A stretch of DNA of 64,000 nucleotides, taken from the NCBI RefSeq assembly GCF_016862635.1, contig NZ_BONI01000038.1, positions 1 to 64,000 on the forward strand, given 5' to 3'. A program made the position numbers and the translations under genes. This DNA comes from Catellatospora coxensis. Lineage in GTDB: Bacteria; Actinomycetota; Actinomycetes; Mycobacteriales; Micromonosporaceae. Under the pieces are notes generated by a model. That model made no database searches. It worked only from the letters and a program-made list of their open reading frames with translations, and was not told where the DNA came from. Every line of letters starts with the position of its first letter. Within the stretch, counting starts at the first letter, position 1. Below are positions 27,468-43,452 of the stretch, in pieces.

Positions 27468-27539
27468 TTGAGCGAGCAGCGCGAGCGAGTCAGCAGGCTT
27501 GCACATGCCGCCGACGAGCGCAGTGAGGAGAAGGCATGA
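27468..27539 (+). CDS. repeat-type mini-ORF, copy at the FMN reductase-PPOX junction
   Basis: A 23-codon frame from TTG (27468) reads LSEQRERVSRLAHAADERSE and ends EKA; its TGA overlaps the next ATG as ATGA. The end of this frame (GAGGAGAAGG) is the ribosome-binding site of the PPOX gene. The peptide matches the mini-ORFs at 39848-39978 and 43345-43452. Whether it is translated is unknown; a TTG start is weak, so read-in from a nearby frame is also possible. Confidence 0.5.
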   Translation: MSEQRERVSRLAHAADERSEEKA

Positions 27540-27955
27540 GCGGGCAGGACCGGCTGTGGCAGGTCATCGGGCGTACCGGCCGGGGCGTGCTGGCCACGAT
27601 CAAGCGCGACGGGCGGCCGCAGCTGTCCAACGTCGACTACCTGGCCGGGGACGGCGTGATCCGGTTCTCCAGCACGGCCGACCGGGCCAAGGTGCGCAAC
27701 CTGCGCCGTGACCCTCGCGCCAGCTTCTACGTGACGACTCCGGGCGGCGGGACGTACGCCGTCGCGGAGGGGCTCGCCGAGCTGTCCGCCATCGCCGCGG
27801 AGCCGTTCGACGCGGCCGTGGAGGAGCTGGTGGAGCTGTATCGGGAGATCCGCGGCGAGCACCCCGACTGGGCCGAGTACCGGGCCGCGATGGTCGCCGA
27901 CGGCCGCCTGGCCGTCCGCATCCACGTCGACCGCCTCTACGGCTGGCTCGGCTGA
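27536..27955 (+). CDS. PPOX-class (F420-dependent) flavin/deazaflavin split-barrel oxidoreductase
   Basis: This 139-residue protein has the split-barrel fold of PPOX-class F420-dependent enzymes: GRGVLATIKRDGRPQLSNVD, then VIRFSSTADRAKVRNLRRDPRASF, which are the cofactor- and phosphate-binding strands. It probably reduces a small substrate with F420H2 or binds flavin. It is joined to the FMN reductase gene through a mini-ORF with an ATGA overlap, so both are likely on the MarR-controlled transcript. Confidence 0.9.
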   Translation: MSGQDRLWQVIGRTGRGVLATIKRDGRPQLSNVDYLAGDGVIRFSSTADRAKVRNLRRDPRASFYVTTPGGGTYAVAEGLAELSAIAAEPFDAAVEELVELYREIRGEHPDWAEYRAAMVADGRLAVRIHVDRLYGWLG

Positions 27956-28028
27956 CCCCGCGCCCTGGTCGCCCCGCGTCGCGCCGCGTCGCGCCGCACC
28001 CGCCCGCCGCCCAGCCCCGCTCTCGATA

Positions 28029-28087
28029 GACGTCGGCCTATCACGTCGAGAATTTCGCCGCCCCAGTCGATGTGATAGGCCAACGTC
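28029..28087. repeat. GACGTTGGCCTAT inverted-repeat element, copy 2
   Basis: Arms at 28029-28049 and 28067-28087 are 21-nt reverse complements with two mismatches and a 17-nt spacer, the same as copy 1 at 19139. It follows the PPOX gene, with a GC-rich simple stretch at about 27975-28010 before it. Confidence 0.85.
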
Positions 28088-28157
28088 GATGCAAAACGCG
28101 TCGGGGAGGCCGCCGGATCGGCGGGCGGGGTGGGGCGGGGCGTGCGAGGCTGGAGGC

Positions 28158-28403
28158 ATGGACGAGAAGCAGATCTTCGAGCGGATCGACTCGCTGGTCG
28201 CCGAGGAGCACGACCTGCGGACCAAGCGGGTGCACGGCGCGATCGACCCCGAGACCGAGTCCGCCCGGCTCCGGTCGCTGGAGGAGACCCTCGACCAGTG
28301 CTGGGACCTGCTGCGCCGCCGCCGCGCGCTCAGGGACGCGGGGGAGAACCCGGACGACGCGAAGGCCGGCGACGTCAAGCAGGTCGAGGGCTACCTGCAG
28401 TAG
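28158..28403 (+). CDS. DUF2630 family protein
   Basis: The 81-residue protein is a compact helical DUF2630 member: FERIDSLVAEEHDLRTKRVH, then LRSLEETLDQCWDLLRRRRA and a DAKAGDVKQVEGYLQ tail. The family is small, acidic and actinobacterial and has no known function. CTGGAGGC precedes the ATG. A strong terminator hairpin follows at 28413. Confidence 0.88.
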   Translation: MDEKQIFERIDSLVAEEHDLRTKRVHGAIDPETESARLRSLEETLDQCWDLLRRRRALRDAGENPDDAKAGDVKQVEGYLQ

Positions 28404-28412
28404 CGATGGAAA

Positions 28413-28447
28413 AAGGGTGGGCGCGGGGGACCTCCGCGCCCACCCTT
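28413..28447. terminator. bidirectional terminator hairpin
   Basis: AAGGGTGGGCGCGG (28413-28426) pairs perfectly with 28434-28447 over a 7-nt loop, between the DUF2630 gene and the end of the convergent symporter gene. An A-run precedes it, so the minus-strand transcript ends with U residues. Confidence 0.85.
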
Positions 28448-28493
28448 GGCCGTGCGCGCCGCCGCGTACGATGCCCGCGGCGGCCAGCACGGC

Positions 28494-30137
28494 TCACGCG
28501 ACGGCCACCGGCTCCCCTTCGGAGTCGATGCCGCGCCGGGGCGAGTCCTCGTCGACGAAGTAGTCGTCGTGCTCGGTGGCGTCGGGCCCGTCGGTCACCT
28601 TCCCGGCCCGCAGCACCAGCGTCGCCAGTACCGCGAAAATGATGTTGACCAGCACCGCGACGAAACCGACGTAGATAGTCGCCTTGGTGTCGAAGCCGAA
28701 CTTCTCCAGCGGGAACGCCGAGCCGGCGAAGTGCATGCGCCCGGTCGCCGGGTTGGCGATCTGGTACAGCATCCACATGCCCAGGCCCATGCCCGCGACC
28801 CAGCCGGTGATCAGCGCGCCCTTGTGGAACCAGCGGGTGAACAGGCCCAGCGCCACCGACGGCAGCGTCTGCAGGATGATCACGCCGCCGATGAGCTGCA
28901 GGTCGATGGAGAACTGCGGGTCGAGCAGCACGATGCACAGCAGCGCGCCGACCTTGACCACCAGCGAGGCGACCTTGCTGACCTTGGCCTCCTGGGCGGG
29001 GCTGGCCTCGCGGTTGAGGTACTCCTTGTAAATGTTGCGGGTGAACAGGTTCGCCGCGGCGATCGACATGATCGCGGCGGGGACCAGCGCGCCGATGCCG
29101 ATCGCAGCGAACGCGACGCCCGCGAACCAGTCCGGGAACTGCTTGTCGAACAGCACCGGCACGATCGTGTTGGTGTCGACCGAGCCGGGGTTCGCCCCGG
29201 GCAGCGGCTTGACCCCGGCCGCGATCGCGGCGAAGCCGAGCATCGCGAGCAGACCCAGCAGCAGCGAGTACGCGGGCAGCGCGGACATGTTGCGCTTGAT
29301 CACGTCGCGGTTGCGGGAGGCGAGCACGCCGGTGACCGAGTGCGGGTAGAGGAACAGCGCCAGCGCCGAGCCGAACGCCAGGGTGATGTACTGCAGCTGG
29401 TTGTTGGCGTTGAGCAGCAGCCCGTCACCGGGGGCGGGACTCGCCTCGTACTTGGCCTGCGCCGCGCCGAAGATCGCGCCCCAGCCGCCGAGCTGCGACG
29501 GCAGCCAGAACACCGCGACCAGGATGACGATGTAGATCAGCGTGTCCTTGACGAACGCGATCAGCGCGGGGGCGCGCAGGCCGGACTGGTAGGTGTACGC
29601 GGCGAGGATGGCGAACGCGATGATGATCGGCGCGTGCCTGGCCAGGGTGGACTCGCCGGTGACGCCCATCGTCTTGAGCACCGCCTCGATGCCGACGAGC
29701 TGCAGCGCGATGTACGGCATGGTGGCGACGATGCCGGTGATCGCGACGAGCAGCGCCAGTGTCGGCGAGCCGAACCGGGCGCGGACGAAGTCGGCCGGGG
29801 TGACCATGCCGTGCCGGTGCGACACCGACCACAACCGCACCAGGACCAGGAAGAACAGCGGGTAGATGATGACGGTGTACGGCACCGCGAAGAAGCCCAT
29901 CGCGCCGGCGCCGAAGACCAGCGCGGGCACGGCGACGAAGGTGTACGCGGTGTAGAGGTCGCCGCCGACCAGGAACCAGGTGATCCACGAGCCGAAGTTG
30001 CGCCCGCCCAGGCCCCACTCGTCGAGGTGCTCCATGTCGGTCGGCCGCCGCCACTTGGCGGCCACGAAGCCCAGCACGCTCACGCCGACGAACAGCACCG
30101 CGAAGACGATGATCTCGGTGAGATGGTCACGCCACAT
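28494..30137 (-). CDS. mctP: sodium:solute symporter, monocarboxylate permease MctP-like
   Basis: This 547-residue SSS-family carrier has about 13 transmembrane segments. The MctP-type N-terminus GGRNFGSWITWFLVGGDLYTAYTF and the sodium-site region ALFLYPHSVTGVLASRNRDV match monocarboxylate (lactate, pyruvate, alanine) uptake permeases. A polar acidic C-terminal tail of about 30 residues ends the protein. It follows a DUF3311 gene by 3 bp; small DUF3311 proteins commonly partner SSS carriers. No FCD or two-component regulator is adjacent, and the FCD gene at 3088 is too far to link. Confidence 0.9.
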   Translation of the reverse strand: MWRDHLTEIIVFAVLFVGVSVLGFVAAKWRRPTDMEHLDEWGLGGRNFGSWITWFLVGGDLYTAYTFVAVPALVFGAGAMGFFAVPYTVIIYPLFFLVLVRLWSVSHRHGMVTPADFVRARFGSPTLALLVAITGIVATMPYIALQLVGIEAVLKTMGVTGESTLARHAPIIIAFAILAAYTYQSGLRAPALIAFVKDTLIYIVILVAVFWLPSQLGGWGAIFGAAQAKYEASPAPGDGLLLNANNQLQYITLAFGSALALFLYPHSVTGVLASRNRDVIKRNMSALPAYSLLLGLLAMLGFAAIAAGVKPLPGANPGSVDTNTIVPVLFDKQFPDWFAGVAFAAIGIGALVPAAIMSIAAANLFTRNIYKEYLNREASPAQEAKVSKVASLVVKVGALLCIVLLDPQFSIDLQLIGGVIILQTLPSVALGLFTRWFHKGALITGWVAGMGLGMWMLYQIANPATGRMHFAGSAFPLEKFGFDTKATIYVGFVAVLVNIIFAVLATLVLRAGKVTDGPDATEHDDYFVDEDSPRRGIDSEGEPVAVA

Positions 30138-30140
30138 GGC

Positions 30141-30383
30141 TCAGCCCTCCCCGTCACGGCGCTTGGCCAGCTTGGTCATCCGGTACACCAGGGTCGTGGT
30201 GCTGACGCCGACAAGGATGTAGGCCAGCTGCTGCCAGTAGAAACGCGGAAAGCCGAGCAGGTCCGGACTGGACGCGTTGTAGAAGGTCGTGATCAGCGGC
30301 AGCACGATCGGGACGATCAGCAGCCAGTTCCACGGACTGTGATCGCGATCGCCGGGTCGCCGGTCGGGTGCGGGTTCACCCAT
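30141..30383 (-). CDS. DUF3311 small membrane protein, SSS transporter partner
   Basis: The 80-residue product has two hydrophobic helices (about 17-35 and 47-65) separated by a polar loop containing FPRFYWQQLAYILVG, the DUF3311 signature. Such proteins are encoded next to sodium:solute symporters and probably assist or stabilise them. It precedes the MctP-like gene by 3 bp on the same strand and so is co-transcribed. Confidence 0.88.
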   Translation of the reverse strand: MGEPAPDRRPGDRDHSPWNWLLIVPIVLPLITTFYNASSPDLLGFPRFYWQQLAYILVGVSTTTLVYRMTKLAKRRDGEG

Positions 30384-30477
30384 GGCACGTGCCTCCTCGC
30401 ACGAAGGGGACGGATCAACGGTGCGAGGGAGGATATGCAGCCCAAGCCGTCAGACTTGCCGTTCGTCGTCCTGACAC

Positions 30478-30510
30478 GCGCCGAACGGTGTCTGCGGTGC
30501 GCCGAACGGT
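30478..30510. promoter_or_regulatory. paired direct repeat GCGCCGAACGGT, 21-bp period
   Basis: GCGCCGAACGGT occurs at 30478-30489 and again at 30499-30510 in direct orientation, two helical turns apart, in the divergent region between the symporter pair and the protein kinase. It is a candidate site for a regulator binding as a tandem dimer. Confidence 0.5.
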
Positions 30511-30591
30511 TGGCATCATACGGCCGAAGGTCTCACCAGATCTGGATCACACTCGGGTTCCCTGCGTGGTGTACACCGTCACCCGGTTGGG

Positions 30592-30597
30592 TAGGGT
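30592..30597 (+). promoter_or_regulatory. -10-like hexamer of the leaderless kinase gene
   Basis: TAGGGT ends 6 nt before the ATG at 30604 and no ribosome-binding site intervenes, which fits a leaderless mRNA. Confidence 0.55.
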
Positions 30598-30603
30598 CCT
30601 CGA

Positions 30604-32532
30604 ATGCCCGCTGTGCCACCTCGTGTCCTCGCAGACCGGTACCGGTTGCTCGAACCTCTCGGCCAGGGCGGGATGGGCATGGTCTGGCTGGCCCGCGACG
30701 AGACCCTGCACCGCGACGTCGCGGTCAAGGAGGTCGTCCCCCCGGCCGGCCTCACCGAGGACGAGCGCGCCGAGATGAACGCCCGCTCGCTGCGCGAGGC
30801 CCGCGCCATCGCCCGGCTCAGCCACCCCAACGTGGTACGCATCTTCGACGTCGTCACCGTCGACGGTCGTCCTTGGATCGTCATGGAGTACCTGTCGGGC
30901 AAGTCCCTGGCCGCGCTGATGGGCGAGCAGGGCCGGCTGGCCCCGGTCAAGGTCGCCGAGATCGGCCTCGGCGTGCTCGCCGCGCTGCGGGCCGCGCACG
31001 GCGCGGGCATGCTGCACCGCGACGTCAAGCCCGGCAACGTCATGCTCGGCGACGACGGCCGCGTCGTGCTCACCGACTTCGGCCTGGCCACCCTGCCCGG
31101 CGACCCTGCCGTGACCCGCACCGGCCTCATCCTCGGCTCACCGTCCTACATCTCCCCGGAACGCGTCGAAGGCGGCGCGGTCGGGCCTGCCGCCGACCTG
31201 TGGTCGCTGGGCGCGACGCTCTACGCCGCCGTCGAGGGCCAGTCCCCGTACGCCCGGCCGAACGCGATGGCGACGCTCGCCGCGCTCGCCACCGAGGAGC
31301 CCGCCCCGCCACGGCTGGCGGGGCCGCTCAAACCGCTGCTGGCGGGCCTGCTGCGCAAGGACCCGCGCCTGCGCATGACCGCGGCCGAGGCCGAGCAGGT
31401 GCTGCTGCGGGTCGCCGTCGGCCGCCGCGGCGGCGCGGGCTTCCTCTCCGGCGTACGGCCCGGCGCGGTTCCCGGCCAGCGACGGACCGCTCCGCCCCTG
31501 GCGCTGCCCGCACGGGCCGCCGCCACGCCGGCCGCCCCCGAAGCCGAGCGACCGGCCCGGACGCTGCCCGACCCGCAGCGGCCCGCCGAACCGAAGACGC
31601 CTGCCGAGTCCGATGTGCCTGCCGGGCTCGATGTGCCCGCCGAGTCCAAGGCATCTGCCAAGTCCAAGCCGCCTGCCGGGCCGAAGGCGCCTGCCGCCGG
31701 TGGTCCTGCCGCGTCCGGAGCCGCCCCTGCCGTGGCCGCCGCAGCAGGGGCCGGTCCGGCCGCGTCGAAGCCGAAGACTGCCGCCGCGGCGGCAGCCGTG
31801 CCCGGTCAGCGGGCTGGGTCGAACGCGGCCGATCGTGCGGTGGGCGCCGCCGAGGTGCCGGGCCCGCCGGAGGGCGCGCTCGTGGCGCGGCAGCAGAAGA
31901 GCCGCCTGCTGGTGATCGCCGCGGCGGCGGCCGTGGTGCTGGCCGTGATCGCGGTCGTGGTCGTGCCGCGCCTGGGTGGCAAGCCGCGCGGCGACGCCGC
32001 CACCGGCACGTCACCGTCGGCGGCAGCGAGCCCGTCCGCCGCGGTCTCGCCGAGCGCATTGCCCTCGCCGTCGCCGAGCGGGCTGGTGCTGCCCGAGGGC
32101 TGGTACATGTACAAGGACCGCACCGGCTTCGCGGTCGCCGTGCCGCGCACGTGGAAGGTCACCCGCGACCGCACCATCGTGCGGTTCAAGGAGCCCGACG
32201 GCGGCCGGCTGCTGCTCGTCGACCAGTCCGACAGCCCGAAGAAGGACCCGGTCGCCGACTGGACCCGACAGGAAGGCAACCGCGTGCGCGCGGGCCACTG
32301 GAACGACTACCGCCGGGTGCGCATCGTCAAGGTCGACTACTTCATCGCCTGCGCGGACTGGGAGTTCACCTACCAGGGCACCTCCGGGCGGGTCCACGTG
32401 ATCAACCGCGGGTTCGTCACCGGGCCGAAGCAGGCGCACGCCATCTACTGGTCCACGCCGGAGTCCCAGTGGCAGGACAACCTCGACGAGTTCGCCCTGA
32501 TCACGGCCAGCTTCCAGCCCAACCCGGTGTGA
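30604..32532 (+). CDS. serine/threonine protein kinase, membrane-anchored (PknB type)
   Basis: The 642-residue protein has a Hanks-type kinase domain (about 12-275): glycine loop GQGGMG at 20-25, Lys42 in VAVKEV, HRDVKPGN with catalytic Asp140, and DFG at 158-160. A low-complexity Ala/Pro/Lys linker (about 290-430) includes imperfect pentapeptide repeats (PAESD, PAGLD, PAESK). One transmembrane helix at about 433-456 leads to an extracellular domain of about 150 residues unlike PASTA. The ligand is unknown. It reads divergently from the symporter pair and probably leads into the GNAT gene 44 bp downstream. Confidence 0.95.
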   Translation: MPAVPPRVLADRYRLLEPLGQGGMGMVWLARDETLHRDVAVKEVVPPAGLTEDERAEMNARSLREARAIARLSHPNVVRIFDVVTVDGRPWIVMEYLSGKSLAALMGEQGRLAPVKVAEIGLGVLAALRAAHGAGMLHRDVKPGNVMLGDDGRVVLTDFGLATLPGDPAVTRTGLILGSPSYISPERVEGGAVGPAADLWSLGATLYAAVEGQSPYARPNAMATLAALATEEPAPPRLAGPLKPLLAGLLRKDPRLRMTAAEAEQVLLRVAVGRRGGAGFLSGVRPGAVPGQRRTAPPLALPARAAATPAAPEAERPARTLPDPQRPAEPKTPAESDVPAGLDVPAESKASAKSKPPAGPKAPAAGGPAASGAAPAVAAAAGAGPAASKPKTAAAAAAVPGQRAGSNAADRAVGAAEVPGPPEGALVARQQKSRLLVIAAAAAVVLAVIAVVVVPRLGGKPRGDAATGTSPSAAASPSAAVSPSALPSPSPSGLVLPEGWYMYKDRTGFAVAVPRTWKVTRDRTIVRFKEPDGGRLLLVDQSDSPKKDPVADWTRQEGNRVRAGHWNDYRRVRIVKVDYFIACADWEFTYQGTSGRVHVINRGFVTGPKQAHAIYWSTPESQWQDNLDEFALITASFQPNPV

Positions 32533-32564
32533 GAACCGGGTTGCCCGGTGATGATCGAGATGGG

Positions 32565-32570
32565 GATACT
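32565..32570 (+). promoter_or_regulatory. -10-like hexamer of the leaderless GNAT-fusion gene
   Basis: GATACT ends 6 nt before the GTG start at 32577, so the gene may have its own leaderless transcript in addition to read-through from the kinase. Confidence 0.45.
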
Positions 32571-32576
32571 CCGCGG

Positions 32577-33296
32577 GTGACCGATGCATACACGTCCGCG
32601 CTGCTGGTGGTGGGGGACAAGGACGAGGAACTCACCGCGCTGCTGGACCGGGAGCTGACCGCGTTCAACAACGCCGCGGTGGGCGTGCACGAGGAACGGT
32701 CCCTGTCCGTGCGGGTGACCGGCCCGGACGGCGCGGTGATCGCCGGGCTGACCGGCTGGACCTGGGGTGCCAGCGCCGGGATCTCCATGGTGTGGGTGCA
32801 CGCCGACCACCGCCGCGACGGCTGGGGCGGCCGCCTGCTGGCCGCCGCCGAGGACGAGGCCCGTGCCCGCGGCTGCGACCGGATCAGCGTCTCGTCGTTC
32901 ACGTTCCAGGCCCCCGAGTTCTACCGCCGCCACGGATACGTCGCCACCGGCCGCACCGAGGGCTACCCCGGGGACGTATCCGACGTGCACTTCTGGAAGC
33001 GCCTCGACGGGCCGACGGTCGCGCCGCGGCTGCGGCTGGTGGCCGTCGTGGACTACCCGGCCGGTCACGAGGAGACCGTGCAGCGGTACGAGGACGACGT
33101 GCTGGCGCTGCTGCCGCGCCACGGCGGCCTGCTGGAGCAGCGGCTGCGCGGGCCGGAGGCCGAGGTGCACGTGATCTCGTTCTCCGCACGGGCCGGACTC
33201 GACGACTACATGGCCGACCCGGACCGCGCCAAACTGCGCGCCGAGATCGGCGACCTCGCGCCGAATGCCCGTGTCCTGACTGTCACCGAAGTCTGA
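32577..33296 (+). CDS. GNAT acetyltransferase fused to a DUF1330/monooxygenase-like ferredoxin-fold domain
   Basis: This 239-residue protein has two parts. Residues 1 to about 150 are a GNAT domain (VWVHADHRRDGWGGRLLAAA acetyl-CoA motif; FYRRHGYVATGRTE motif B). Residues about 155-239 (LVAVVDYPAGHEETVQRYED, then VISFSARAGLDDYMADPDRA) resemble the small dimeric alpha-beta barrel domains of DUF1330 or antibiotic-monooxygenase type. The combination may sense or modify a small molecule. The GTG at 32577 follows GATACT by 6 nt. It may be co-transcribed with the kinase. Confidence 0.8.
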   Translation: MTDAYTSALLVVGDKDEELTALLDRELTAFNNAAVGVHEERSLSVRVTGPDGAVIAGLTGWTWGASAGISMVWVHADHRRDGWGGRLLAAAEDEARARGCDRISVSSFTFQAPEFYRRHGYVATGRTEGYPGDVSDVHFWKRLDGPTVAPRLRLVAVVDYPAGHEETVQRYEDDVLALLPRHGGLLEQRLRGPEAEVHVISFSARAGLDDYMADPDRAKLRAEIGDLAPNARVLTVTEV

Positions 33297-33402
33297 GGGT
33301 GTCTTCGGCCGGGTGCCCGGCGAGTGATCTGACTCACCGAACGTCACCAGGCGCGGGATGCGCGGTGTCTTGAGGCCGAACCTTGCCGACGAAGGAGAGG
33401 TC

Positions 33403-34377
33403 ATGGCTGAGAACACCCAGGTCGTTGCGGATGGTGCGGGAGGCGCGTCAGCCCGGTCGGTTCCATCGCCGGTTGACGGAGCGCCCGTGCCGCCACCCGA
33501 CGGCCGCGGCCGCGCTGTCGCCATCACCCAGTGGGTGCTGGTCGCCGCCGGCCTGACGGTGGCCCTGGTGATGCCGCTCGCCACATCGGGCGCCGCCCCC
33601 GTGGTCGGCCTGCTGCTGCTGGCGGTCCCGTTCGCGGCGATCCACGGGACCTGCCGCTACGGCTGGCGGCGGTTCCTGACCTTCTTCGCCGTAAGCTTCG
33701 TGGTCAGCAACTTCTTCGAGAACCTCAGCATCATGACCGGGTTCCCGTTCGGTGACTACCACTACACCGGTAGCGTCAAGCTGTTCCATGTCCCGATCGA
33801 GATCGGCCCGATCTACTTCGGCCTGGGCTACCTCAGCTGGCTGACCGCCTCCACTCTGCTGGACCGTGCCGACGAGCAACTGAACTGGCGTGAACGCACC
33901 GGGCGGTTCAACACCTTCGCGCTGCCCGCCCTCGCGGCCGCCGTGATGACCATGTTCGACGTATCGGTCGACTCGCAGGCCTCCACGGTCAACCATGTCT
34001 GGATCTGGGAGGACGGCGGCGGTGTATTCGGTGTCCCGTACACCAACTACCTGGGCTGGTGGTTGGTCACCCACATCTTCTTCCAGATCTTCGCGCTGCT
34101 GCTCGCCGGCCACCAGACCCGGGCCGAGAAGCCCGGTGCCGCTGTCACACCCGGGTCGCTCCTGCAGCCTGTGCTGTTCTACATGGCGACCGGGCTGGCG
34201 TCCGTCTCGATGTTCTTCGCCGCGGAGACCGGCACCGTCGTCGATGCTGCCGGAGTCATCTGGGACCGCACCGCGATCAACGAGACGATGATGACGATCG
34301 GCGTCTTCAGCGTCATCACCGTCGCCCTCCTCGCCCTGGCGAAGATCGCGCGCGGTGACACCCGCACGCCGCTGTAG
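33403..34377 (+). CDS. carotenoid biosynthesis protein (DUF422/CruF family)
   Basis: The 324-residue membrane protein has about eight hydrophobic segments and the DUF422 core GTCRYGWRRFLTFFAVSFVV, then NFFENLSIMTGFPFGDYHYT. The family includes CruF, the carotenoid 1,2-hydratase. No crtB, crtI or crtE gene is in the window, so its substrate is uncertain. GAAGGAGAGGTC gives a strong ribosome-binding site before the ATG at 33403; an earlier in-frame start would add a poor N-terminus. It stands alone between a GNAT gene and a convergent small gene. Confidence 0.88.
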   Translation: MAENTQVVADGAGGASARSVPSPVDGAPVPPPDGRGRAVAITQWVLVAAGLTVALVMPLATSGAAPVVGLLLLAVPFAAIHGTCRYGWRRFLTFFAVSFVVSNFFENLSIMTGFPFGDYHYTGSVKLFHVPIEIGPIYFGLGYLSWLTASTLLDRADEQLNWRERTGRFNTFALPALAAAVMTMFDVSVDSQASTVNHVWIWEDGGGVFGVPYTNYLGWWLVTHIFFQIFALLLAGHQTRAEKPGAAVTPGSLLQPVLFYMATGLASVSMFFAAETGTVVDAAGVIWDRTAINETMMTIGVFSVITVALLALAKIARGDTRTPL

Positions 34378-36586: not shown

Positions 36587-37171
36587 ATGGACGTGCACTT
36601 GGCGAGCAGGCGCCGAGCTGCCGCGTCGATCGAGGCGGCGTATCCAGGGGCCGTGGTCGTCGACGTGACCTCGCGTGGCCCGCAGCCGTGGGTGCGGCTG
36701 AGCCCGTTCTGCCCGCACGGGGACATCCCGGTGCCGTTCACGCCCGGCGTGACCAGCCAGTCCGTCGAGGGCGTCTGGCAGGCGCTGAAGGTCTTCATGC
36801 ACGCCGATGTGGACCCGGGCAAGCTGGCCGTCACCGCGATGCGCGGCCTCAAACGCACGACGGCCGCGTACGGCCCGCCGCTGGGTCACCGCCGCGGCCT
36901 GCACGGGACGATCCTGCTCGGCTACGAGCACGCCCGCCGCGAGATCTACCTGCCGACGTACCGGCACGTCCTGGAGGGCGCGGCCGCCGCCGAGGTGGCG
37001 CGGCTGCGTGAACTGGCCGGCAGCGGCACGCTCGTGCTGCTGGACTACACGCTCAACGGCGACCCGGCCGACCTGCGTACCCCGCTGTCGCACGCGGCGC
37101 TGCTGCGCCGGCACCTGCTCGGCGACTGGCCGTCGGAAATCCACGTGGAGCCCGCCGCCGCCGCGGGTTAG
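36587..37171 (+). CDS. conserved hypothetical protein (DUF6939-like)
   Basis: This 194-residue soluble protein has a conserved-looking N-terminal half: VVVDVTSRGPQPWVRLSPFC, PHGDIPVPFTPGV, SVEGVWQALKVFMHADVD and GLKRTTAAYGPPLGHRRGLH. It ends with LVLLDYTLNGDPADLRTPLS. The organisation suggests an enzyme or nucleotide-binding fold of the DUF6939 type, but I cannot assign a reaction. GGGGGAGGACACC precedes the ATG. A HEAT-like protein gene starts 9 bp downstream, so the two are co-transcribed. Confidence 0.75.
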   Translation: MDVHLASRRRAAASIEAAYPGAVVVDVTSRGPQPWVRLSPFCPHGDIPVPFTPGVTSQSVEGVWQALKVFMHADVDPGKLAVTAMRGLKRTTAAYGPPLGHRRGLHGTILLGYEHARREIYLPTYRHVLEGAAAAEVARLRELAGSGTLVLLDYTLNGDPADLRTPLSHAALLRRHLLGDWPSEIHVEPAAAAG

Positions 37172-37180
37172 CGTGCGGCG

Positions 37181-37519
37181 GTGTCGAAGTTCTTCCGGGA
37201 CTGCATGCGGCAGATGCGGTCGCGTGACCCGCAGGAGATGGAGGACGGCTTCCACGGCCTGGCCCCGCGAGCGGCGGAGTACGTGCCGGAGCTGATCGAG
37301 GCCTTCGAGCAGGAGCGGGCGGACAGCGGCCTGCGGTGCTGGCTGCTGGAGCTGCTCGGCGAGGCGCGCTCGGAGGCGGCACTGGCGGTGTTCCGGGAGC
37401 AGCTGTACGGCGACGACGACTCCCTGCGGTTCTGGGCCGTCTCCGGCCTGCGCAAGCTGGACACCCGGGACTCGCGCCGCGAGCTGTGGCAGGCGCGCTG
37501 CAACGGCCGCATCGACTGA
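37181..37519 (+). CDS. small HEAT-repeat-like protein
   Basis: The 112-residue protein is entirely helical and resembles a few HEAT repeats: VPELIEAFEQERADSGLRCW, LLELLGEARSEAALAVFREQ and LRFWAVSGLRKLDTRDSRRE. Such proteins bind partners rather than catalyse reactions. Its GTG start lies 9 bp after the 36587 gene, with which it is likely co-transcribed. No cofactor or metal motif is visible. Confidence 0.8.
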   Translation: MSKFFRDCMRQMRSRDPQEMEDGFHGLAPRAAEYVPELIEAFEQERADSGLRCWLLELLGEARSEAALAVFREQLYGDDDSLRFWAVSGLRKLDTRDSRRELWQARCNGRID

Positions 37520-37621
37520 GCAATAAGTAGTCACATAGTCGCTTTAAGTAACCAACTCGGGCATCCCCAGTTGATCGGACAGGAGCAGCAGGTCCCCGGT
37601 CCGGGGCTCGAGGAGGTACGC

Positions 37622-38956
37622 ATGCGTCAGTGGGTTCGCAGGGCGGCGTCGGCCGCCGCGGTCAGCCTGTCGGCGGGGGTCGCTGGACTGTCCCTGCCCG
37701 CACCCGCGCTGGCGGTCTCGCCCGACATCGTGATCAGCCAGGTGTACGGCGGCGGCGGCAACACCGGCGCGACGTACACCAACGACTTCATCGAGCTGTA
37801 CAACCGCGGCTCCATGACGGTCGACGTGACCGGGTGGACGGTCCAGTACGCGAGCGCGGCCGGCAGCACGTGGCAGACCACCGCCCTGAGCGGCGAGATC
37901 CTCCCCGGCGCGTACTACCTCGTCCAGGAGGCCCAGGGTCCCGGCGGCACGACGCCGCTGCCGACCCCGAACGCCGTCGGCGACATCGCGATGAGCCTCA
38001 GCTCGGGCAAGGTCGCCCTGGTCACCACCTCGGCTCCGCTCGCGTGTGCCATCGGTTGCGACACGGCCGCCGGGGTGCGCGACTTCGTCGGGTACGGCAG
38101 CTCGGCGACCTCCGCCGAGGGCAGCCCCGCGCCGACGCTGAGCAACACCACCGCCGCGCTGCGCGACGACGACGGGGCGGTCGACACCGACGACAACAGC
38201 GTCGACTTCTCGGCCGGCCCGCCCGACCCGCGCAACAGCCCGCCGCCCGCCGCCGAGGCCGACCTGGCCGTCACGAAGTTCGACGCGCCGGACCCGGTGA
38301 CCGCCGGCGCGAACCTGACGTACACCATCGCCGTGCGCAACGAAGGTCCCGGCACGGCTGAGTCGGTCGTGCTGCGTGACGGGATCCCGGCGGGCACCAC
38401 CTTCGTGTCGTTCGCGGCGTCGGCGGCCGGCTGGGCGCTGGCCACCCCGCCGGTCGGCGGCACCGGTGAGGTGCGGGCGACCCGGTCGAGCCTGAGCTCC
38501 GGCGACAGCGCCGAGTTCACCCTGGTCGTGCAGGTCGGGCTGACCGCGACCGGGCGGATCCGGAACAGCGGCGGCATCACCAGCGCCACCCCGGACCCGG
38601 ACACCACGAACAACGCCGACACCGAGTTCACCACCGTCGGCCCGAGCACTCCGGGATGCACCATCACCGGCACCGAGGGGACCGACATCCTCAACGGCAC
38701 CCTCGGCGACGACGTCATCTGCGGCCTCGGCGGCAACGACATCATCAACGGCCGGGGCGGCAACGACGTCATCTACGGCGGTCCGGGCCGCGACCTGATC
38801 AGCGGCGGCAAGGGCGACGACATGGTGTACGGCGAGGAGGGCACCGACTTCATCAAGATCGATGACGGGGTGTCCGGCAACGACAACGCCGACGGCGGTC
38901 CGGGCTTCGACCTGTGCAGCACCGACCCGCTCGACGCGGTGCTGAGCTGCCCCTGA
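37622..38956 (+). CDS. secreted lamin-tail/DUF11/RTX-like repeat protein
   Basis: This 444-residue exported protein has a signal peptide (1-31, cleavage after ALA), a lamin-tail domain (about 33-165; PDIVISQVYGGGGNTGAT), a DUF11 conserved repeat (about 215-345; ADLAVTKFDAPDPVTAGANL) and a C-terminal stretch of RTX-like nonapeptides (about 350-425; GGNDIINGRGGNDVIYGG). The repeats should bind calcium once outside. In Gram-positive actinobacteria such proteins are exported by Sec or Tat, and no type I secretion genes are seen. The role is probably surface adhesion or matrix. GAGGAGGTACGC gives a ribosome-binding site before the ATG. Confidence 0.85.
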   Translation: MRQWVRRAASAAAVSLSAGVAGLSLPAPALAVSPDIVISQVYGGGGNTGATYTNDFIELYNRGSMTVDVTGWTVQYASAAGSTWQTTALSGEILPGAYYLVQEAQGPGGTTPLPTPNAVGDIAMSLSSGKVALVTTSAPLACAIGCDTAAGVRDFVGYGSSATSAEGSPAPTLSNTTAALRDDDGAVDTDDNSVDFSAGPPDPRNSPPPAAEADLAVTKFDAPDPVTAGANLTYTIAVRNEGPGTAESVVLRDGIPAGTTFVSFAASAAGWALATPPVGGTGEVRATRSSLSSGDSAEFTLVVQVGLTATGRIRNSGGITSATPDPDTTNNADTEFTTVGPSTPGCTITGTEGTDILNGTLGDDVICGLGGNDIINGRGGNDVIYGGPGRDLISGGKGDDMVYGEEGTDFIKIDDGVSGNDNADGGPGFDLCSTDPLDAVLSCP

Positions 38957-38976
38957 TCCGGCACCCGATGACCCGG

Positions 38977-39006
38977 AGCTCCGCCCGTGCCCGCACGGGT
39001 GGAGCT
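38977..39006. terminator. bidirectional terminator between convergent genes
   Basis: AGCTCCGCCCGTGC (38977-38990) pairs with 38993-39006 with one mismatch and a 2-nt centre, between the secreted protein and the RsdA-like gene. Confidence 0.8.
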
Positions 39007-39014
39007 GCGGCGTT

Positions 39015-39851
39015 TCACAACAGCGGCAGGTCCGGCAGCAGCGACGGCAGGATCGGCGGCAGCGACGGCAGGCCCGGCAGGAGGCCGCCCGAGCCCGCGG
39101 TCGGGCTGGGCGCCGGCCGGTCGGTCCGGCCCGGGGCAGGCGTCGCAGTGGCACCGGACGGAGCCGGCGAGCCGGAGGGTGCGGGCGTCGGCAGCGGGGC
39201 GGCGGTGGGCGACGTTCCCGCGGCGAAGGCGGCCAGCAGCCGCATCAGCTCGGCCCGCAGCCGCTCGTGGTCCGCCTTCTCGCGTACCCCGCCCAGCCGG
39301 TCCCAGGCCTGGCGGAGCAGCGTCTCGGCGTCGCCGTACGGCTGCTCCCGCAACGCGAGTTCGGCCCGTGCCAGCAGCTCTGCCGTGTCCCGCGCGGCGA
39401 CGCGGGAGTCGGCGCGCTCGGCGTAGACGAGCTGCGTGACCGGCCACAGCGGGGTGCCCGGCTGTCCTGCCCCGGCCCCGAGGACGACCCCGCCACCGAG
39501 AGCTGCGGCGAGCAGCGCGGCGGCGAGCAGCATCCGGCCTGGGCGCACGCGCCCGCCTCGCGCGGGTCGGGCGAAGCCGCCACGGCGACCGGGCGGGCGC
39601 GAGGAACCCGCCGGCCCCGTGGCGGCGGGCCGGAGCACGGTGGCTGCCGGCTCGTCGTCGGAGTCCAGGCCGATCGGGTCGGCCAGAGCGGCCTGCTCGG
39701 CGATGTCCAGGTCGCGGGCGGGTGCGAACGGCGGCTCGGCGAGGTCTGCCCGCCAGGCGGCCAGCATCCCGGCGAGCGGGTCGTCGGCGTGGGCGGCCCC
39801 GCCGAGGCCAAGCCCGTCCAGCAGCGCGTCATCCCGATCCAGCGTGCTCAT
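39015..39851 (-). CDS. rsdA: anti-sigma factor RsdA-like, membrane-anchored
   Basis: The 278-residue protein has an N-terminal sigma-binding region (about 1-50; LDRDDALLDGLGLGGAAHAD and DDPLAGMLAAWRADL) as in RsdA, one transmembrane helix (about 107-127) and an extracytoplasmic domain. It ends in a Leu/Pro-rich tail (GGLLPGLPSLPPILPSLL). In Mycobacterium, RsdA holds SigD until it is proteolysed. It lies downstream of the sigma gene through two tandem mini-ORFs whose ATGA overlaps lead to its own ATG at 39851, so it should be coupled to sigma expression. Confidence 0.82.
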   Translation of the reverse strand: MSTLDRDDALLDGLGLGGAAHADDPLAGMLAAWRADLAEPPFAPARDLDIAEQAALADPIGLDSDDEPAATVLRPAATGPAGSSRPPGRRGGFARPARGGRVRPGRMLLAAALLAAALGGGVVLGAGAGQPGTPLWPVTQLVYAERADSRVAARDTAELLARAELALREQPYGDAETLLRQAWDRLGGVREKADHERLRAELMRLLAAFAAGTSPTAAPLPTPAPSGSPAPSGATATPAPGRTDRPAPSPTAGSGGLLPGLPSLPPILPSLLPDLPLL

Positions 39852-39919
39852 GCCACCTCCTCGCTTCGCTCGTCGGCGGCATCGCCGAACCTGCTGATTC
39901 GCTCGCTGCGCTCGCTCAT
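39848..39919 (-). CDS. repeat-type mini-ORF, second of two tandem copies
   Basis: A 23-codon frame begins [20 protein letters not shown] and ends EVA; its TGA overlaps the RsdA ATG (ATGA). It is a tandem duplicate of 39916-39978 with one extra SER unit. GAGGAGG near its end is the RsdA ribosome-binding site. Translation is inferred only from the coupled starts and stops. Confidence 0.5.
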   Translation of the reverse strand: MSERSERISRFGDAADERSEEVA

Positions 39920-39975
39920 GCCACCTCCTCGCTTCGCTCGTCGGCGGCATCGCCGAACCTGCTGATTCGCTCGCT
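39849..39975. repeat. 68-bp direct duplication in the sigma-anti-sigma gap
   Basis: 39849-39916 and 39917-39975 are identical except that the first copy has nine extra bases (GCGCTCGCT, an added SER repeat). Each copy encodes one mini-ORF of the MSER type. Confidence 0.9.
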
Positions 39976-39978
39976 CAT
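39916..39978 (-). CDS. repeat-type mini-ORF, first of two tandem copies
   Basis: A 20-codon frame, [20 protein letters not shown], starts at an ATG that overlaps the sigma stop (ATGA) and ends with a TGA that overlaps the start of the second copy. This gives a chain of stop-start couplings from sigma factor to RsdA. Confidence 0.55.
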
Positions 39979-40592
39979 GCCGGCCTCCGCTCCAGGGCCG
40001 GTTGCTGCGCGGCGTCCTCGCGCAGGTCGTCGGCGAGGGCGCGCAGGCGGGCCAGGGCCCGGGACTGGGCGACGCGGACGGCTCCGGCCGACATGTTGAG
40101 GGAGACGCCGACCTCGTCGGCGGTCAGGCCGACGGCGACCCGCAGCACGATGATCTCCCGCTGCGGGTCGGGGAGCAGGTCGAGCAGGCGGGCCAGGCGG
40201 CGGGCCTGGTCGTTGTCCAGGGCCTGCTGCTCCGGTCCGGGGGTGTCGTCGGGCTGGTCGAGCGGGTCGGCCTCGGTGCGCGGGGACGGCACGGCGGCGG
40301 ACAGGTGGCGCATCGCGGCGCGCTGCGCGTCGGCGACCTTGCGGGCGGAGATGCCGTACACGAAGGCGGAGAACGGCACGCCCTGCTGCCGGTAGCGGGG
40401 CAGCGCCTGCAGCAGCGCGATGCAGACGTCCTGGGCCACGTCGTCGGCGGTGGTGTACGCGCCGCCGACCGGCCCGAGCCGGGCCCGGCAGTAGCGGATC
40501 ACGCCGGGGCGCACGTCCGCCAGCAGGGTGGCGGTGGCGTCGGGCTCGCCACGGGTGGCGCGCGCCACGAGTTCGGTCTCCGACCAGGTCAA
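39975..40592 (-). CDS. sigD: ECF sigma factor, SigD/ShbA-like
   Basis: This about 205-residue sigma factor has region 2 ([14 protein letters not shown] and [20 protein letters not shown]) and region 4 ([20 protein letters not shown] and [19 protein letters not shown]). It matches the actinobacterial SigD/ShbA group; ShbA in Streptomyces drives transcription of the main sigma factor gene hrdB. The TTG at 40592 is preferred because GGAGGAGG lies 10 nt before it; a GTG at 40652 would add 20 atypical residues. It heads a unit with mini-ORFs and RsdA, and is divergent from the mce operon. Confidence 0.85.
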
Positions 40593-40767
40593 GGCGACGA
40601 CACCTCCTCCCCGGGTCCCCGACCGCCGCGCCGCGCGTACGAGTACGTGCACCTTATCGGCCTGCGACCGGGCACTGAAACCCGCGCCGACCCGATCGCG
40701 CGAAATTCTCGTGTAACACCGCGCGCCCCCGCAGCGATATGTGAGGGCGGACTACGGAGGGAGCGCG

Positions 40768-41724
40768 GTGGGCGTCGAGGTGCGGGTCGAAGGGCTGACC
40801 AAGTCGTTCGGGCGTACGCCCGTGTGGTCGGACGTGACCTTGACGCTGCCCGCGGGTGAGATCTCGGTGCTGCTCGGGCCCTCCGGGACGGGCAAGTCGG
40901 TGTTCCTGAAGACGCTGGTCGGGCTGCTGCGCCCGGACCGCGGCTCGATCTGGATCGAGGGCCGGGATCTGCCCGCGCTGCCCGAACGCGAGCTGTACGA
41001 GGTGCGCAAGCTGTTCGGGGTGCTGTTCCAGGACGGCGCGCTGTTCGGCTCGATGGACATCTACGACAACGTGGCGTTCCCGCTGCGCGAGCACACCCGG
41101 ATGACCGAGGCGCAGATCCGCGTGATCGTGGGCGAGAAGCTGGAGATGGTCGGCCTGACCGGCGCGGAGCGCAAGCTGCCCGGCGAGATCTCCGGCGGTA
41201 TGCGCAAACGGGCGGGCCTGGCCCGCGCGCTGGTGCTCGACCCGCAGATCGTGCTGTTCGACGAGCCCGACTCGGGCCTCGACCCGGTGCGCACCGCGTA
41301 CCTGAACCAGCTGATCGTGGATCTGAACCAGCAGCTCGACGCGACGTTCCTGATCGTCACGCACGACATCAACACCGCCCGCACGGTGCCGGACAACATC
41401 GGGCTGATCTACCACGGGCACCTGGCCATGTTCGGGCCGCGAGAGATGCTGCTGTCGAGCACCGAGCCGGTGGTGCGGCAGTTCCTCAACGCGCAGCGGG
41501 TCGGCCCGATCGGGATGTCCGAGGAGAAGGATGCCGACGAGCTGGCCGCCGAGGCCGCCTCCGGCCGCCGCCTGGCCGCGCTGCCGCCGATCCCGGTGCA
41601 GCTGCGCCCCTCCGACGGCGGCCCGCGCCGCGCCGAGCGCCCGCCGGGCCGGTGGTGCGCTGCCCACGGGGTGACCCCGCCACCGGGCTCGTTCGAACCG
41701 CCGACGTACGAGGACCGGGCATGA
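40768..41724 (+). CDS. mceG: Mce-system ATPase MceG (MlaF-like)
   Basis: The 318-residue ATPase energises lipid import by the mce system. Motifs: Walker A GPSGTGKS at 37-44, Q-loop LFQDGALFG, signature EISGGMRKRAGLARAL and Walker B VLFDEPDSGLD, then THDINTA with the H-loop. Residues about 240-318 form the C-terminal extension typical of MceG. It opens the mce operon and is joined to yrbEA by a mini-ORF with ATGA overlaps at both ends. GGAGGGAGCGCG precedes the GTG at 40768. Confidence 0.95.
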   Translation: MGVEVRVEGLTKSFGRTPVWSDVTLTLPAGEISVLLGPSGTGKSVFLKTLVGLLRPDRGSIWIEGRDLPALPERELYEVRKLFGVLFQDGALFGSMDIYDNVAFPLREHTRMTEAQIRVIVGEKLEMVGLTGAERKLPGEISGGMRKRAGLARALVLDPQIVLFDEPDSGLDPVRTAYLNQLIVDLNQQLDATFLIVTHDINTARTVPDNIGLIYHGHLAMFGPREMLLSSTEPVVRQFLNAQRVGPIGMSEEKDADELAAEAASGRRLAALPPIPVQLRPSDGGPRRAERPPGRWCAAHGVTPPPGSFEPPTYEDRA

Positions 41725-41786
41725 GCGCGCGGATGGTGCCGGCCCGAAGTCGTGCCGCCGCCGGGCGCAGCGAGGCGGAGGCATGA
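41721..41786 (+). CDS. degenerate repeat-type mini-ORF, mceG-yrbEA junction
   Basis: A 21-codon frame (MSARMVPARSRAAAGRSEAE, ending A) starts on an ATG that overlaps the mceG stop (ATGA) and ends with a TGA that overlaps the yrbEA ATG. The MSA-start and GRSEAEA-end resemble the MSER/ADERSEE mini-ORFs, with a divergent middle. Its end provides the ribosome-binding site of yrbEA. Confidence 0.4.
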   Translation: MSARMVPARSRAAAGRSEAEA

Positions 41787-42541
41787 GGGCGCTGGTCGCC
41801 GTCGGCGACTTCCTGATCTTCTGCGGGAGTGCCCTGCGGGCGCTTTTCCGCAGGCCGTGGCAGGTGCGCGAGTTCGTGCAGCAGGCGTGGTTCCTGTCGT
41901 CGGTGTCGATCCTGCCCGCGGCGCTGGTGTCGATCCCGTTCGGCGCGGTGGTCGCGCTGCAGCTCGGCTCGCTGGTGCGCCAGCTGGGCGCGCAGTCGTT
42001 CACCGGTGCGGCTTCGGTGCTGGCGGTGGTGCGCGAGGCGGGCCCGATCGTGACCGCGCTGATCATCGCGGGGGCGGGCGGTTCGGCGATCTGCGCCGAC
42101 CTGGGCGCTCGCAAGATCCGCGAGGAGCTGGACGCGATGCGGGTGCTGGGCATCGACCCGGTGCACCGCCTCGTCGTGCCGCGGGTGCTCGCCTCGATGC
42201 TGGTCGCGGTGCTGCTCAACGGCGTGGTGAGCGTCGTCGGGGTGTCCGGCGGCTACTTCTTCAACGTGATCATGCAGGGCGGCACGCCGGGGTCGTACCT
42301 GGCCAGCTTCCAGGCGCTCGGGCAGCTGCCCGACCTGATCTCCGGGGAGCTGAAGGCGCTGGTCTTCGGCCTGGTCGCCGCGCTGGTCGCGACGTACCTG
42401 GGGATGAACGCCAAGGGCGGGCCCAAGGGCGTCGGCGATGCCGTCAACCAGTCCGTGGTGATCACCTTCATGCTGCTGTTCGCGCTGAACTTCGTGCTGA
42501 CCGCGGTGTACTTCCAGGTCGTCCCGCAGAAGGGGTCCTGA
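41783..42541 (+). CDS. yrbEA: Mce permease YrbEA (MlaE family)
   Basis: This 252-residue integral membrane permease has about five transmembrane helices and the MlaE-family EQ loop region EAGPIVTALIIAGAGGSAIC, then GARKIREELDAMRVLGIDPV (about 89-130). With YrbEB it forms the inner-membrane pore of the mce lipid importer, driven by MceG. It starts directly after the mini-ORF stop and stops 1 bp before yrbEB, within one operon. Confidence 0.93.
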   Translation: MRALVAVGDFLIFCGSALRALFRRPWQVREFVQQAWFLSSVSILPAALVSIPFGAVVALQLGSLVRQLGAQSFTGAASVLAVVREAGPIVTALIIAGAGGSAICADLGARKIREELDAMRVLGIDPVHRLVVPRVLASMLVAVLLNGVVSVVGVSGGYFFNVIMQGGTPGSYLASFQALGQLPDLISGELKALVFGLVAALVATYLGMNAKGGPKGVGDAVNQSVVITFMLLFALNFVLTAVYFQVVPQKGS

Positions 42542-42542
42542 C

Positions 42543-43340
42543 ATGTGGCGGCTGTTGGACGACCTCGGCGGCCAGCTCGCCTTCTACCTGAAGGCGGCGG
42601 CGTGGACGCCGCGCGCGCTGCGCCGGTACAAGCGCGAGGTGGCCCGCCTGCTCGCGGAGATCAGCTTCGGGACCGGCGGCCTGGCCGTGGTCGGCGGCAC
42701 CATCGGCGTCATCTGCTTCCTGACCTTCTTCACCGGCACCGAGGTCGGGCTGCAGGGCTACCAGGCGCTCAACCAGCTCGGCAGCAGTGCCTTCACCGGC
42801 TTCATCTCCGCCTACTTCAACACCCGGGAGATCTCGCCGCTGGTCGCGGCGCTGGCCCTGTCGGCGACGGTGGGCTGCGGGTTCACCGCGCAGCTCGGCG
42901 CGATGCGGATCTCCGAGGAGGTCGACGCGCTGGAGGTGATGGCGATCCCGTCGGTGCCGTTCCTGGTCACCACCCGCATGATCGCCGGTTTCGTCGCGGT
43001 GATCCCGCTGTACGTGCTCGGCCTGCTGGCCAGCTACATCGCCACCCGCGGCATCGCCACCGTGTACTTCGGGCAGTCCCCGGGCACCTACGACTACTAC
43101 TTCGACCTGTTCCTGCCGCCGGGCGACGTGCTCTGGTCGTTCGGCAAGGTGCTGGTGTTCAGCGTGCTGGTGGTGCTGATCCACTGCTACTACGGGTTCA
43201 CCGCGAGCGGCGGCCCGGCGGGCGTCGGCATCGCGGTCGGCCGCGCGGTGCGCACCGCCATCGTCGCGGTCAACATCGTCGACTTCTTCCTGTCGCTGGC
43301 CATCTGGGGCGCGGGCACGACCGTGCGGATCGCGGGGTGA
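42543..43340 (+). CDS. yrbEB: Mce permease YrbEB (MlaE family)
   Basis: The 265-residue permease is the MlaE-family partner of YrbEA, with about five transmembrane helices and the conserved coupling stretch GCGFTAQLGAMRISEEVDAL (about 112-131). It completes the membrane part of the lipid importer. A 35-codon mini-ORF follows 4 bp after its stop and links it to mceA. Confidence 0.93.
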   Translation: MWRLLDDLGGQLAFYLKAAAWTPRALRRYKREVARLLAEISFGTGGLAVVGGTIGVICFLTFFTGTEVGLQGYQALNQLGSSAFTGFISAYFNTREISPLVAALALSATVGCGFTAQLGAMRISEEVDALEVMAIPSVPFLVTTRMIAGFVAVIPLYVLGLLASYIATRGIATVYFGQSPGTYDYYFDLFLPPGDVLWSFGKVLVFSVLVVLIHCYYGFTASGGPAGVGIAVGRAVRTAIVAVNIVDFFLSLAIWGAGTTVRIAG

Positions 43341-43344
43341 CGGC

Positions 43345-43452
43345 ATGAGCGAGCGCAGCGAGCAGGCGAGCGAGTCTCGCGAGCGAGCAATGTCGTGGAG
43401 CATGGCAGCACGTGGACATGCCTGCGACGAGCGCAGCGAGGAGCGGGCATGA
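43345..43452 (+). CDS. repeat-type mini-ORF, yrbEB-mceA junction
   Basis: A 35-codon frame begins MSERSEQASESRERAMSWSM and ends HACDERSEERA; the closing ERSEE block matches the other mini-ORFs. Its TGA overlaps the mceA ATG (ATGA) and its last codons (GAGGAGCGGG) are the ribosome-binding site of mceA. Translation is inferred from the coupled starts and stops. Confidence 0.5.
   Translation: MSERSEQASESRERAMSWSMAARGHACDERSEERA

Follow-up and report, generated by a model that had tools for sequence, protein, structure and literature searches.

The question raised by the first 64,000 nucleotides of Catellatospora coxensis contig NZ_BONI01000038.1 (the window) is how a set of very short open reading frames (mini-ORFs), each ending in a TGA that overlaps the start codon behind it, came to lie between neighboring genes. 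A first-pass annotation of this DNA had described them as portable modules linking the translation of neighbors. Our analysis indicates that they are probably miniature mobile elements, resembling the mycobacterial interspersed repetitive units (MIRUs), which enter at start codons, couple the gene behind them through a mini-ORF, and carry two hairpins chiefly for movement as single-stranded DNA. What we observe is a repeat family with a mapped distribution, start-codon sites that are filled in one genome and empty in another, a conserved reading frame, and hairpin arms that covary.

When the sequence is read, five units are present at four sites of the window, each open and each closing with a TGA that shares bases with the ATG of the unit or gene behind it, just as had been claimed:

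e1, 27468..27539, forward strand: single unit, 23-amino-acid mini-ORF with a TTG start, its TGA overlapping the ATG of a pyridoxamine 5'-phosphate oxidase-like (PNPOx-like) gene
e2a, 39916..39978, reverse strand: first of a tandem pair, 59 bp from ATG to ATG, head shortened, between a sigma factor gene and an RsdA-like gene; 20-amino-acid peptide
e2b, 39848..39919, reverse strand: second of the tandem pair, 68 bp, 23-amino-acid peptide
e3, 41721..41786, forward strand: degenerate unit with an ABC ATPase gene before it and an MlaE permease gene behind it, peptide MSARMVPARSRAAAGRSEAEA followed by the stop
e4, 43345..43452, forward strand: long unit, 104 bp from ATG to ATG, between MlaE permease and Mce-family genes, peptide MSERSEQASESRERAMSWSMAARGHACDERSEERA followed by the stop

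At their start, e2a and e3 overlap the stop of the frame before them; e4 and e1 begin 4 and 26 nt, respectively, after the stop that precedes them.

Throughout the C. coxensis genome, units keep to start codons and stay in frame. Among the 61 units with a good head (the conserved beginning of the unit, as opposed to its tail), xTGA stands at the expected place in 58, and all 58 are open and in frame; the remaining three are L011, which has no junction, and both units of L021, whose tail is three bases longer. A looser choice of heads gives 70 of 74 in frame (the exceptions being L055, L064, and the first units of L062 and L076), and pooling with congeners and relatives gives 138 of 143 in frame and 4 more without a junction, a set that takes in 73 named units found with a pattern requiring GGCATGA, for which the frame alone is a test. 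Measured from ATG to ATG, most units are 68, 71, or 74 bp long, and nearly all lengths are 2 mod 3. Two counted units stand in tandem in 11 of 62 arrays. When the 55 arrays whose last tail has at most one mismatch were followed downstream, 52 preceded a frame starting at xTG that is coding-like by codon-position G+C rather than by annotation, one lay at a contig end, and two (L047 and L048) did not fit start-codon placement. The frame-broken unit L064 has no coding-like frame behind it, a single case, and insertions in non-coding DNA are rare. The first-pass annotation was thus right that units stand between same-strand genes, keep their frame, end in an ATGA junction and supply an AGGAG ahead of the next start; the contrary pattern that it had named, copies in all frames and positions without ATGA overlaps, is not what was found.

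Upstream of the 62 arrays, at least one of which (L072) is a chance match inside a gene, 34 overlap the previous stop; in 21 that stop falls 3-48 nt before the overlap position, and in 2 it is further away; four arrays have no clear upstream gene and one has its best frame on the other strand. A same-strand upstream gene with its stop within 60 nt is present in 55 of the 62, and head position is uncertain in 17 arrays with head scores of 13-15. Insertion exactly at a stop-start overlap is therefore common (34 arrays) and is not required, as e1, e4, and the 21 arrays with a more distant stop illustrate. The insertion target is the start codon, not the overlap, because at e1 the previous stop does not always overlap in congeners.

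Comparison with other Catellatospora genomes separates filled from empty sites and bears out the portability of the units. The e2 site holds 0, 1, or 2 units across the genus: a single ATGA in G516, G491, G500, G524, and G509, one unit in G520 and G478, and two in C. coxensis, three other congeners being ones that could not be aligned. Therefore, units come or go at the start codon. The e1 site has no insert in seven alignable congeners, and the start codon is ATGA in four of them. At e4 there is no insert in G516, G520 (start GTGA), or G524 (ATGC) and a 71-bp unit in G478; at e3, other degenerate inserts are present in G520, G516, and G478 and none in G524. Two further regions of about 19 kb, compared in seven congeners, contain more filled and empty sites, e.g., one at which four species have a unit and G520 has just an ATGA. 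A junction between genes that we take to be rimI-like and tsaD-like (L168, L345-L351) is a hot spot, with differing inserts in five congeners besides C. coxensis.

The tail pattern GACGAGCGCAGCGAGGAG (at most 2 mismatches) has 109 matches in the C. coxensis genome versus 8 for the reversed pattern. Among the matches listed, 101 distinct tail matches lie in the loci read, some of them chance matches inside genes, and the family comes to about 90 copies. A longer tail pattern has at least one match in 106 of 250 Micromonosporaceae genomes, its reversed version having 0 in every genome, and copies per genome in 11 Catellatospora genomes number 1, 3, 7, 8, 17, 26, 64, 91, 94 (C. coxensis), 116, and 118. 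In a wider scan, the matches listed are mostly from Catellatospora, with others in Dactylosporangium, Micromonospora, Plantactinospora, and one Streptomyces; five of the six Micromonospora matches read are one conserved locus and not dispersed units. A class-wide sample of 394 genomes gave strict-tail matches in C. coxensis and in two others, with one match each in those two, and in that exact form the family is not general across the class.

A typical unit consists of two hairpins in one orientation, in which Watson-Crick pairs are mixed with tandem G.A pairs; the mini-ORF start codon lies at the base of the first, and the start codon of the next gene lies in the stem of the second. Within the 68-bp units, bases 2-3 of codon 4 and base 1 of codon 5 vary in 53-60% and the other bases of codons 1-7 in at most 7%. 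Whatever their codon position, the variable bases are the loop of the stem AT-GA-GC-GA-GC [NNN] GC-GA-GC-GA-AT. Across 203 heads, position 1 (the first base of the start codon) pairs with position 23 as A-T in 152, G-C in 21, A-C in 16, G-T in 5, and otherwise in 9 (Fisher test on the four main classes, 7.5e-14), and by inspection the tables of position 1 against positions 20, 21, 22, and 24 show no comparable link. Two-sided changes number 6 for positions 9-15 and 5 for positions 6-18, and at one orthologous site the first unit has G...C in C. coxensis and A...T in G491. Stability rules for tandem G.A motifs in DNA form the background against which such a stem is read. Three-base loops read GNA in 94 of 173 heads, and four-base loops read GNNA in 11 of 12, the latter count being modest evidence, since one base inserted in a GNA loop gives GNNA about half the time. 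Extraordinary stability is described in PMC4686876 for DNA mini-hairpins that have a GNA or GNNA loop on a G-C stem.

The tail has the form CATGCC(nn) GA-C-GA-GC [GNA] GC-GA-G-GA (nn)GGCATG-A, with the next gene's start codon in the outer stem and, as in the head, a conserved core of Watson-Crick plus tandem G.A pairs. RNA folding of tails as short pieces, a procedure that favors local hairpins, found this hairpin unprompted, and it beat 200 of 200 shuffles in e4, L002, and L324 (z below -3). In the window, the hairpins read as follows:

e1 head hairpin region, 27468..27490, forward strand: loop AGC, base weakened (T1/T23, T2/G22), read against the family pairing
e1 tail hairpin, 27504..27538, forward strand: CATGCC...GGCATG around GACGAGC-GCA-GTGAGGA in the minimum free energy fold, containing the next start codon (z -1.34, not significant for that copy alone)
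e4 tail hairpin, 43417..43451, forward strand: 9-bp outer stem CATGCCTGC/GCGGGCATG including the next start codon (RNA fold z -3.67, 0 of 200 shuffles as stable)

In both hairpins, then, the start codon's first base changes together with the base that it pairs with: in the tail, the matching partner is C in 13 of 17 GTGA copies and T in 146 of 167 ATGA copies. In 60 deliberately diverse tails, 27 stem cells are two-sided versus 5.7 when shuffled (0 of 500 shuffles reaching 27; slid versions give at most 19), and in 184 tails the count is 75, where 1000 shuffles average 36 and never exceed 50. Several units with a standard head carry other tails (L318, L320, L321, L323, L324, L326, L330, and L333), a number of which, L324, L330, and L333 among them, are long hairpins quite unlike the standard tail; L333 ends at ATGG, not ATGA.

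The predicted RNA folds also lend themselves to a second explanation, which we hold to be possible at somewhat less than an even chance, namely that the tail acts in mRNA: the stem would mask the next start, translation of the mini-ORF would melt it, ribosomes would reinitiate at the TGA, and units would be kept for this coupling with spread being secondary. It is favored by 100 of 168 tails having every base of the xTG paired in the predicted RNA fold, by real tails folding better than arm-swapped ones (-15.07 versus -13.27 kcal/mol, p 3e-8, five swaps pooled), and by the z values of e4, L002, and L324. However, copy numbers of 1 to 118 within one genus, together with polymorphic sites, fit spread better than a needed regulator, the GNA and GNNA head loops match described stable DNA mini-hairpins, and some tails that lack AGGAG still form a long perfect hairpin (L324).

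Dactylosporangium harbors a relative whose link to the target is clearer, one of its arms being complementary to the start-codon region where it sits. It is found at 8 to 107 places per genome in seven genomes sampled (reversed control 0), and its head, xTGANCGG ... CCGN'TCAx', is perfect over 8 pairs in 59 of 117 heads and over 7 pairs in 13. The right end was placed for 87 units, the other 30 being left out, and in these the arms are complementary at variable positions 1 and 5 in 73 and 70 (shuffle maxima 56 and 50). Among 56 last units, the left end equals the gene start at the same positions in 47 and 43 (maxima 41 and 35), and the inner arm matches the gene start in 40 and 37 (maxima 37 and 32); position 6 gave no signal against the gene start. 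A rare site is empty in the sister genome G486, where a single GTGATCGA stands at the gene start; in G513 a unit occupies it, flanked left and right by GTGATCG, and the inner arm of this unit, CCGATCAC, matches that start. Some sites show direct repeats of 5-7 nt. Of the 87 units, 44 have a length of 2 mod 3 (ATGA coupling), 39 one of 0 mod 3 (in-frame fusion), and 4 one of 1 mod 3, a result favored by taking as right end an xTGA at which a long frame or the next unit begins. Units of 84 bp (L360, L361, L365, and L397), a multiple of three, continue in frame into the next unit or gene, and tandem arrays of them could therefore add 28 residues per unit to an N-terminus.

Complementarity between an arm and the start region is thus present in both Catellatospora and Dactylosporangium and is by itself neutral as to cause and direction. 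One cause, which we consider doubtful, would be mutational: template switching in replication perfects imperfect palindromes, with neither selection nor a guide role behind the covariation. The Dactylosporangium counts lean toward it, with the left and inner arms matching each other in 73 and 70 of 87 units and the gene start being matched by the left end in 47 and 43 of 56 and by the inner arm in 40 and 37 of 56, whereas the four G.A positions of the Catellatospora head stem, which such a process should have perfected, stay G.A in 176, 193, 197, and 195 of 203 heads.

Under the reading that we prefer, that of MIRU-like mobile elements, a unit would enter a gene at its xTGA start (x = A or G), mostly inside operons. 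The old start codon and ribosome-binding site would then drive a mini-ORF of about 20-35 codons, and the unit would bring a new AGGAG and a TGA overlapping the gene's own start, through which translation would reach the gene by termination-reinitiation. We infer translation and coupling of this kind, and insertion may be tolerated because termination-reinitiation still carries translation to the gene. On the transcript, the second hairpin would leave the next gene reliant on ribosomes that have passed through the mini-ORF. The hairpins would serve chiefly as folded single-stranded DNA for movement, and base pairing to the start-codon region would choose or match the site; for this part, too, we infer single-strand movement and a guide role. 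More tentative is the wider proposition that actinobacteria harbor guide-bearing single-stranded DNA mini-elements, in which an internal arm pairs with the start region and selects the site and the mini-ORF restores translation.

Several observations weigh against our preferred reading. The covariation could stem from template-switch repair or from mRNA selection, and the copies are related, so the counts are not independent. The putative head hairpin rests on covariation and conservation, and the RNA fold of a composite whole unit was mixed, with the head hairpin not seen. Two of the five tail pieces did not fold clearly better than their shuffles as RNA (22 of 200 as stable for e1, 128 of 200 for L025), and with DNA parameters folding was not significant for four of the five. 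In the 60-tail set, the pairs with two-sided change number 4 versus 2.7, a value reached by 54 of 500 shuffles. A rare fifth base at seven Dactylosporangium gene starts is matched by the arm in only 2, and 5 of 72 pattern-found named units fail, being out of frame or without a start codon. The units keep to start codons more strictly than would be expected of a 4-base target, as pure DNA targeting would also hit non-coding DNA. Finally, no mobilizing enzyme was found in a survey of Y1 transposases in 11 congeners: the C. coxensis genome has a single Y1 match, with an internal stop, G491 has 64 copies and no Y1 transposase, and the motif CGAGCNNNGCGAG has two matches in nine Y1 loci (3.1-3.4 kb), both in the same TnpB-like coding sequence (L342 and L344).

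Other candidates were set aside. The resident Y1 transposase (PF01797) as mobilizer is present in 6 of 11 congeners and has no link to unit ends. A longer autonomous element with the same ends was looked for in 19 C. coxensis regions with heads outside the tail pattern, and there was no enzyme inside the short units. Fifteen of the 20 heads in these regions belong to short units ending exactly at xTGA, some near-standard and some with other tails; the rest run past ATGA (L319), stop before ATGG (L333), run into a long frame (L334 and L335), or are cut by a contig end. The frame of L319 continues past its ATGA to a later GTGA. Origin as a miniature inverted-repeat transposable element of DDE transposons was rejected, the head and tail ends not being inverted copies.

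A functional peptide was likewise rejected: three mini-peptides have no Pfam match, and variability tracks the hairpin loop and not codon position. The hairpins account for the sequence conservation better than the peptide does, and the DERSEE peptide is for the most part a side effect of the hairpin. The synonymous comparison proposed in the first-pass annotation does yield nonsynonymous/synonymous ratios of 2.4, 2.6, and 2.7 for the 68-, 71-, and 74-bp classes versus 4.9, 4.7, and 3.8 expected, a difference confounded by the hairpin. Conservation of a peptide such as MSER...DERSEE should be viewed with caution and not be taken as proof that the peptide has a function.

The coupled layout, which had been called little described, was in fact already described for mycobacterial MIRUs, which are mobile repeats at start codons with an internal ORF coupled at -4 nt (PMC12548453, which cites Supply et al. 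1997) and have published unit lengths of 77 and 53 bp (PMC4213456). Like MIRUs, the Catellatospora units are short, interspersed and tandem, located at start codons in operons, with a coupled ORF, lengths of 2 mod 3, and filled and empty sites; unlike MIRUs, they have another sequence outside the tail, another host family, covarying start-codon hairpins, and no requirement for overlap with the upstream stop. In the open-access literature searched, we found no paper on such units outside mycobacteria and no description of the hairpin anatomy, the start-codon covariation, or the spread in Micromonosporaceae. Start-codon mobile repeats with a coupled ORF are hence known, and the hairpins holding start codons, their covariation, and the Micromonosporaceae distribution seem to be new.

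Likeness need not mean kinship, and we think it rather unlikely that the units belong to the MIRU family by descent. This comparison used 77-bp units at start codons in putative Mycobacterium genomes; matches occur in 89 of 248 genomes (E at most 0.01), some of them weak. These units share the layout and the published MIRU length, and their tail resembles that of Catellatospora. Outside the tail, however, the sequences differ, several of the mycobacterial units (L191-L220) have direct repeats of roughly 9 bp on either side (such as ATGAGCCCG and ATGACTTCC), and two that were folded lack start-codon hairpins like those of Catellatospora.

Other known systems offer partial parallels. Repetitive extragenic palindromes (REPs), with their REP-associated tyrosine transposases (TnpA-REP or RAYT), are likewise short hairpin repeats scattered through genomes and presumed to move in single-stranded form. 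The REP palindrome carries a conserved 5' GTAG tetranucleotide, and in IS200/IS605 elements guide complementarity selects the cleavage site (both PMC8266576). Unlike REPs, the consensus units have no GTAG, no intact Y1 gene was found in the C. coxensis genome, and the units occupy start-codon sites and are open in frame. The units resemble IS200/IS605 elements in that hairpins of one orientation lie close to each end, the one in the head being deduced from covariation, in that a tetranucleotide but no terminal inverted repeat marks the ends, and in that an internal sequence is complementary to the start region, the putative target; they differ in having no Y1 enzyme tied to the units, in the 5-7 nt direct repeats at some Dactylosporangium sites, and in the start-codon restriction. 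Mycobacterial RTGA-coupled small ORFs, whose TGA overlaps the next start, are reported to be over-represented and are described as belonging to leaderless transcripts (Shell et al. 2015, PMC4633059). The Catellatospora units are like them in the TGA/start overlap and unlike them in being a repeated mobile unit.

Least probable by far is that the units are non-coding interspersed repeats, open by chance in a G+C-rich genome: core conservation does follow the hairpin and not the peptide, and four-base-loop heads alter the peptide after residue 4, yet all 58 C. coxensis units are in frame with xTGA at both ends, four of the five four-base-loop units read (L002, L053, L237, L292, and L064) keep a length of 2 mod 3, and internal stops number 0 in sets of 58, 56, and 16 copies versus 9.3, 12.9, and 3.6 expected from randomly placed substitutions (only 2.2, 4.2, and 1.5 if the substituted positions are kept, zero being reached in 47, 4, and 93 of 500 simulations).

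The MIRU principle, which the literature consulted places in mycobacteria only, now extends to several Micromonosporaceae, Catellatospora and Dactylosporangium among them. The range of 1 to 118 copies in one genus makes the spread of such elements testable in soil bacteria, and start codons within covarying hairpins lead to concrete predictions for movement and coupling. Start-site annotation is affected as well, as units mimic N-termini or tiny genes.

The genes adjoining the units in the window are of kinds ordinarily met in operons and, with their Pfam matches, are the following:

before e1, 26860..27441, forward strand: NADPH-dependent FMN reductase (PF03358)
after e1, 27536..27955, forward strand: PNPOx-like (PF01243)
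before e2, 39975..40652, reverse strand: sigma-70 family sigma factor (PF04542/PF04545)
after e2, 39015..39851, reverse strand: anti-sigma-D (RsdA)-like (PF16751, 26.2 bits, just below the cut-off of 26.7)
before e3, 40741..41724, forward strand: ABC transporter ATPase (PF00005)
after e3, 41783..42541, forward strand: MlaE-type permease (PF02405)
before e4, 42543..43340, forward strand: MlaE-type permease (PF02405)
after e4, 43449..44690, forward strand: Mce-family protein (PF11887/PF02470)

An Rfam scan of the window returned no family above the gathering score. The motif GAGCGCAGCGAGC (at most 1 mismatch) has 7 matches in the window versus 0.88 expected, a number reached by 0 of 100 shuffles, and only 3 of the 7 fall inside units. 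Elsewhere, the gene at L354 (putative C. methionotrophica) has MSERISG... as its own N-terminus, which looks like a unit head that has become part of the coding sequence. Lastly, in putative Mycobacterium, a 35-bp coupled mini-ORF with GAGCGAAGCGAGGC precedes the start of a presumably pknA-like gene (L176, L178, L181, and L186), and it is in tandem in L181 and L186.

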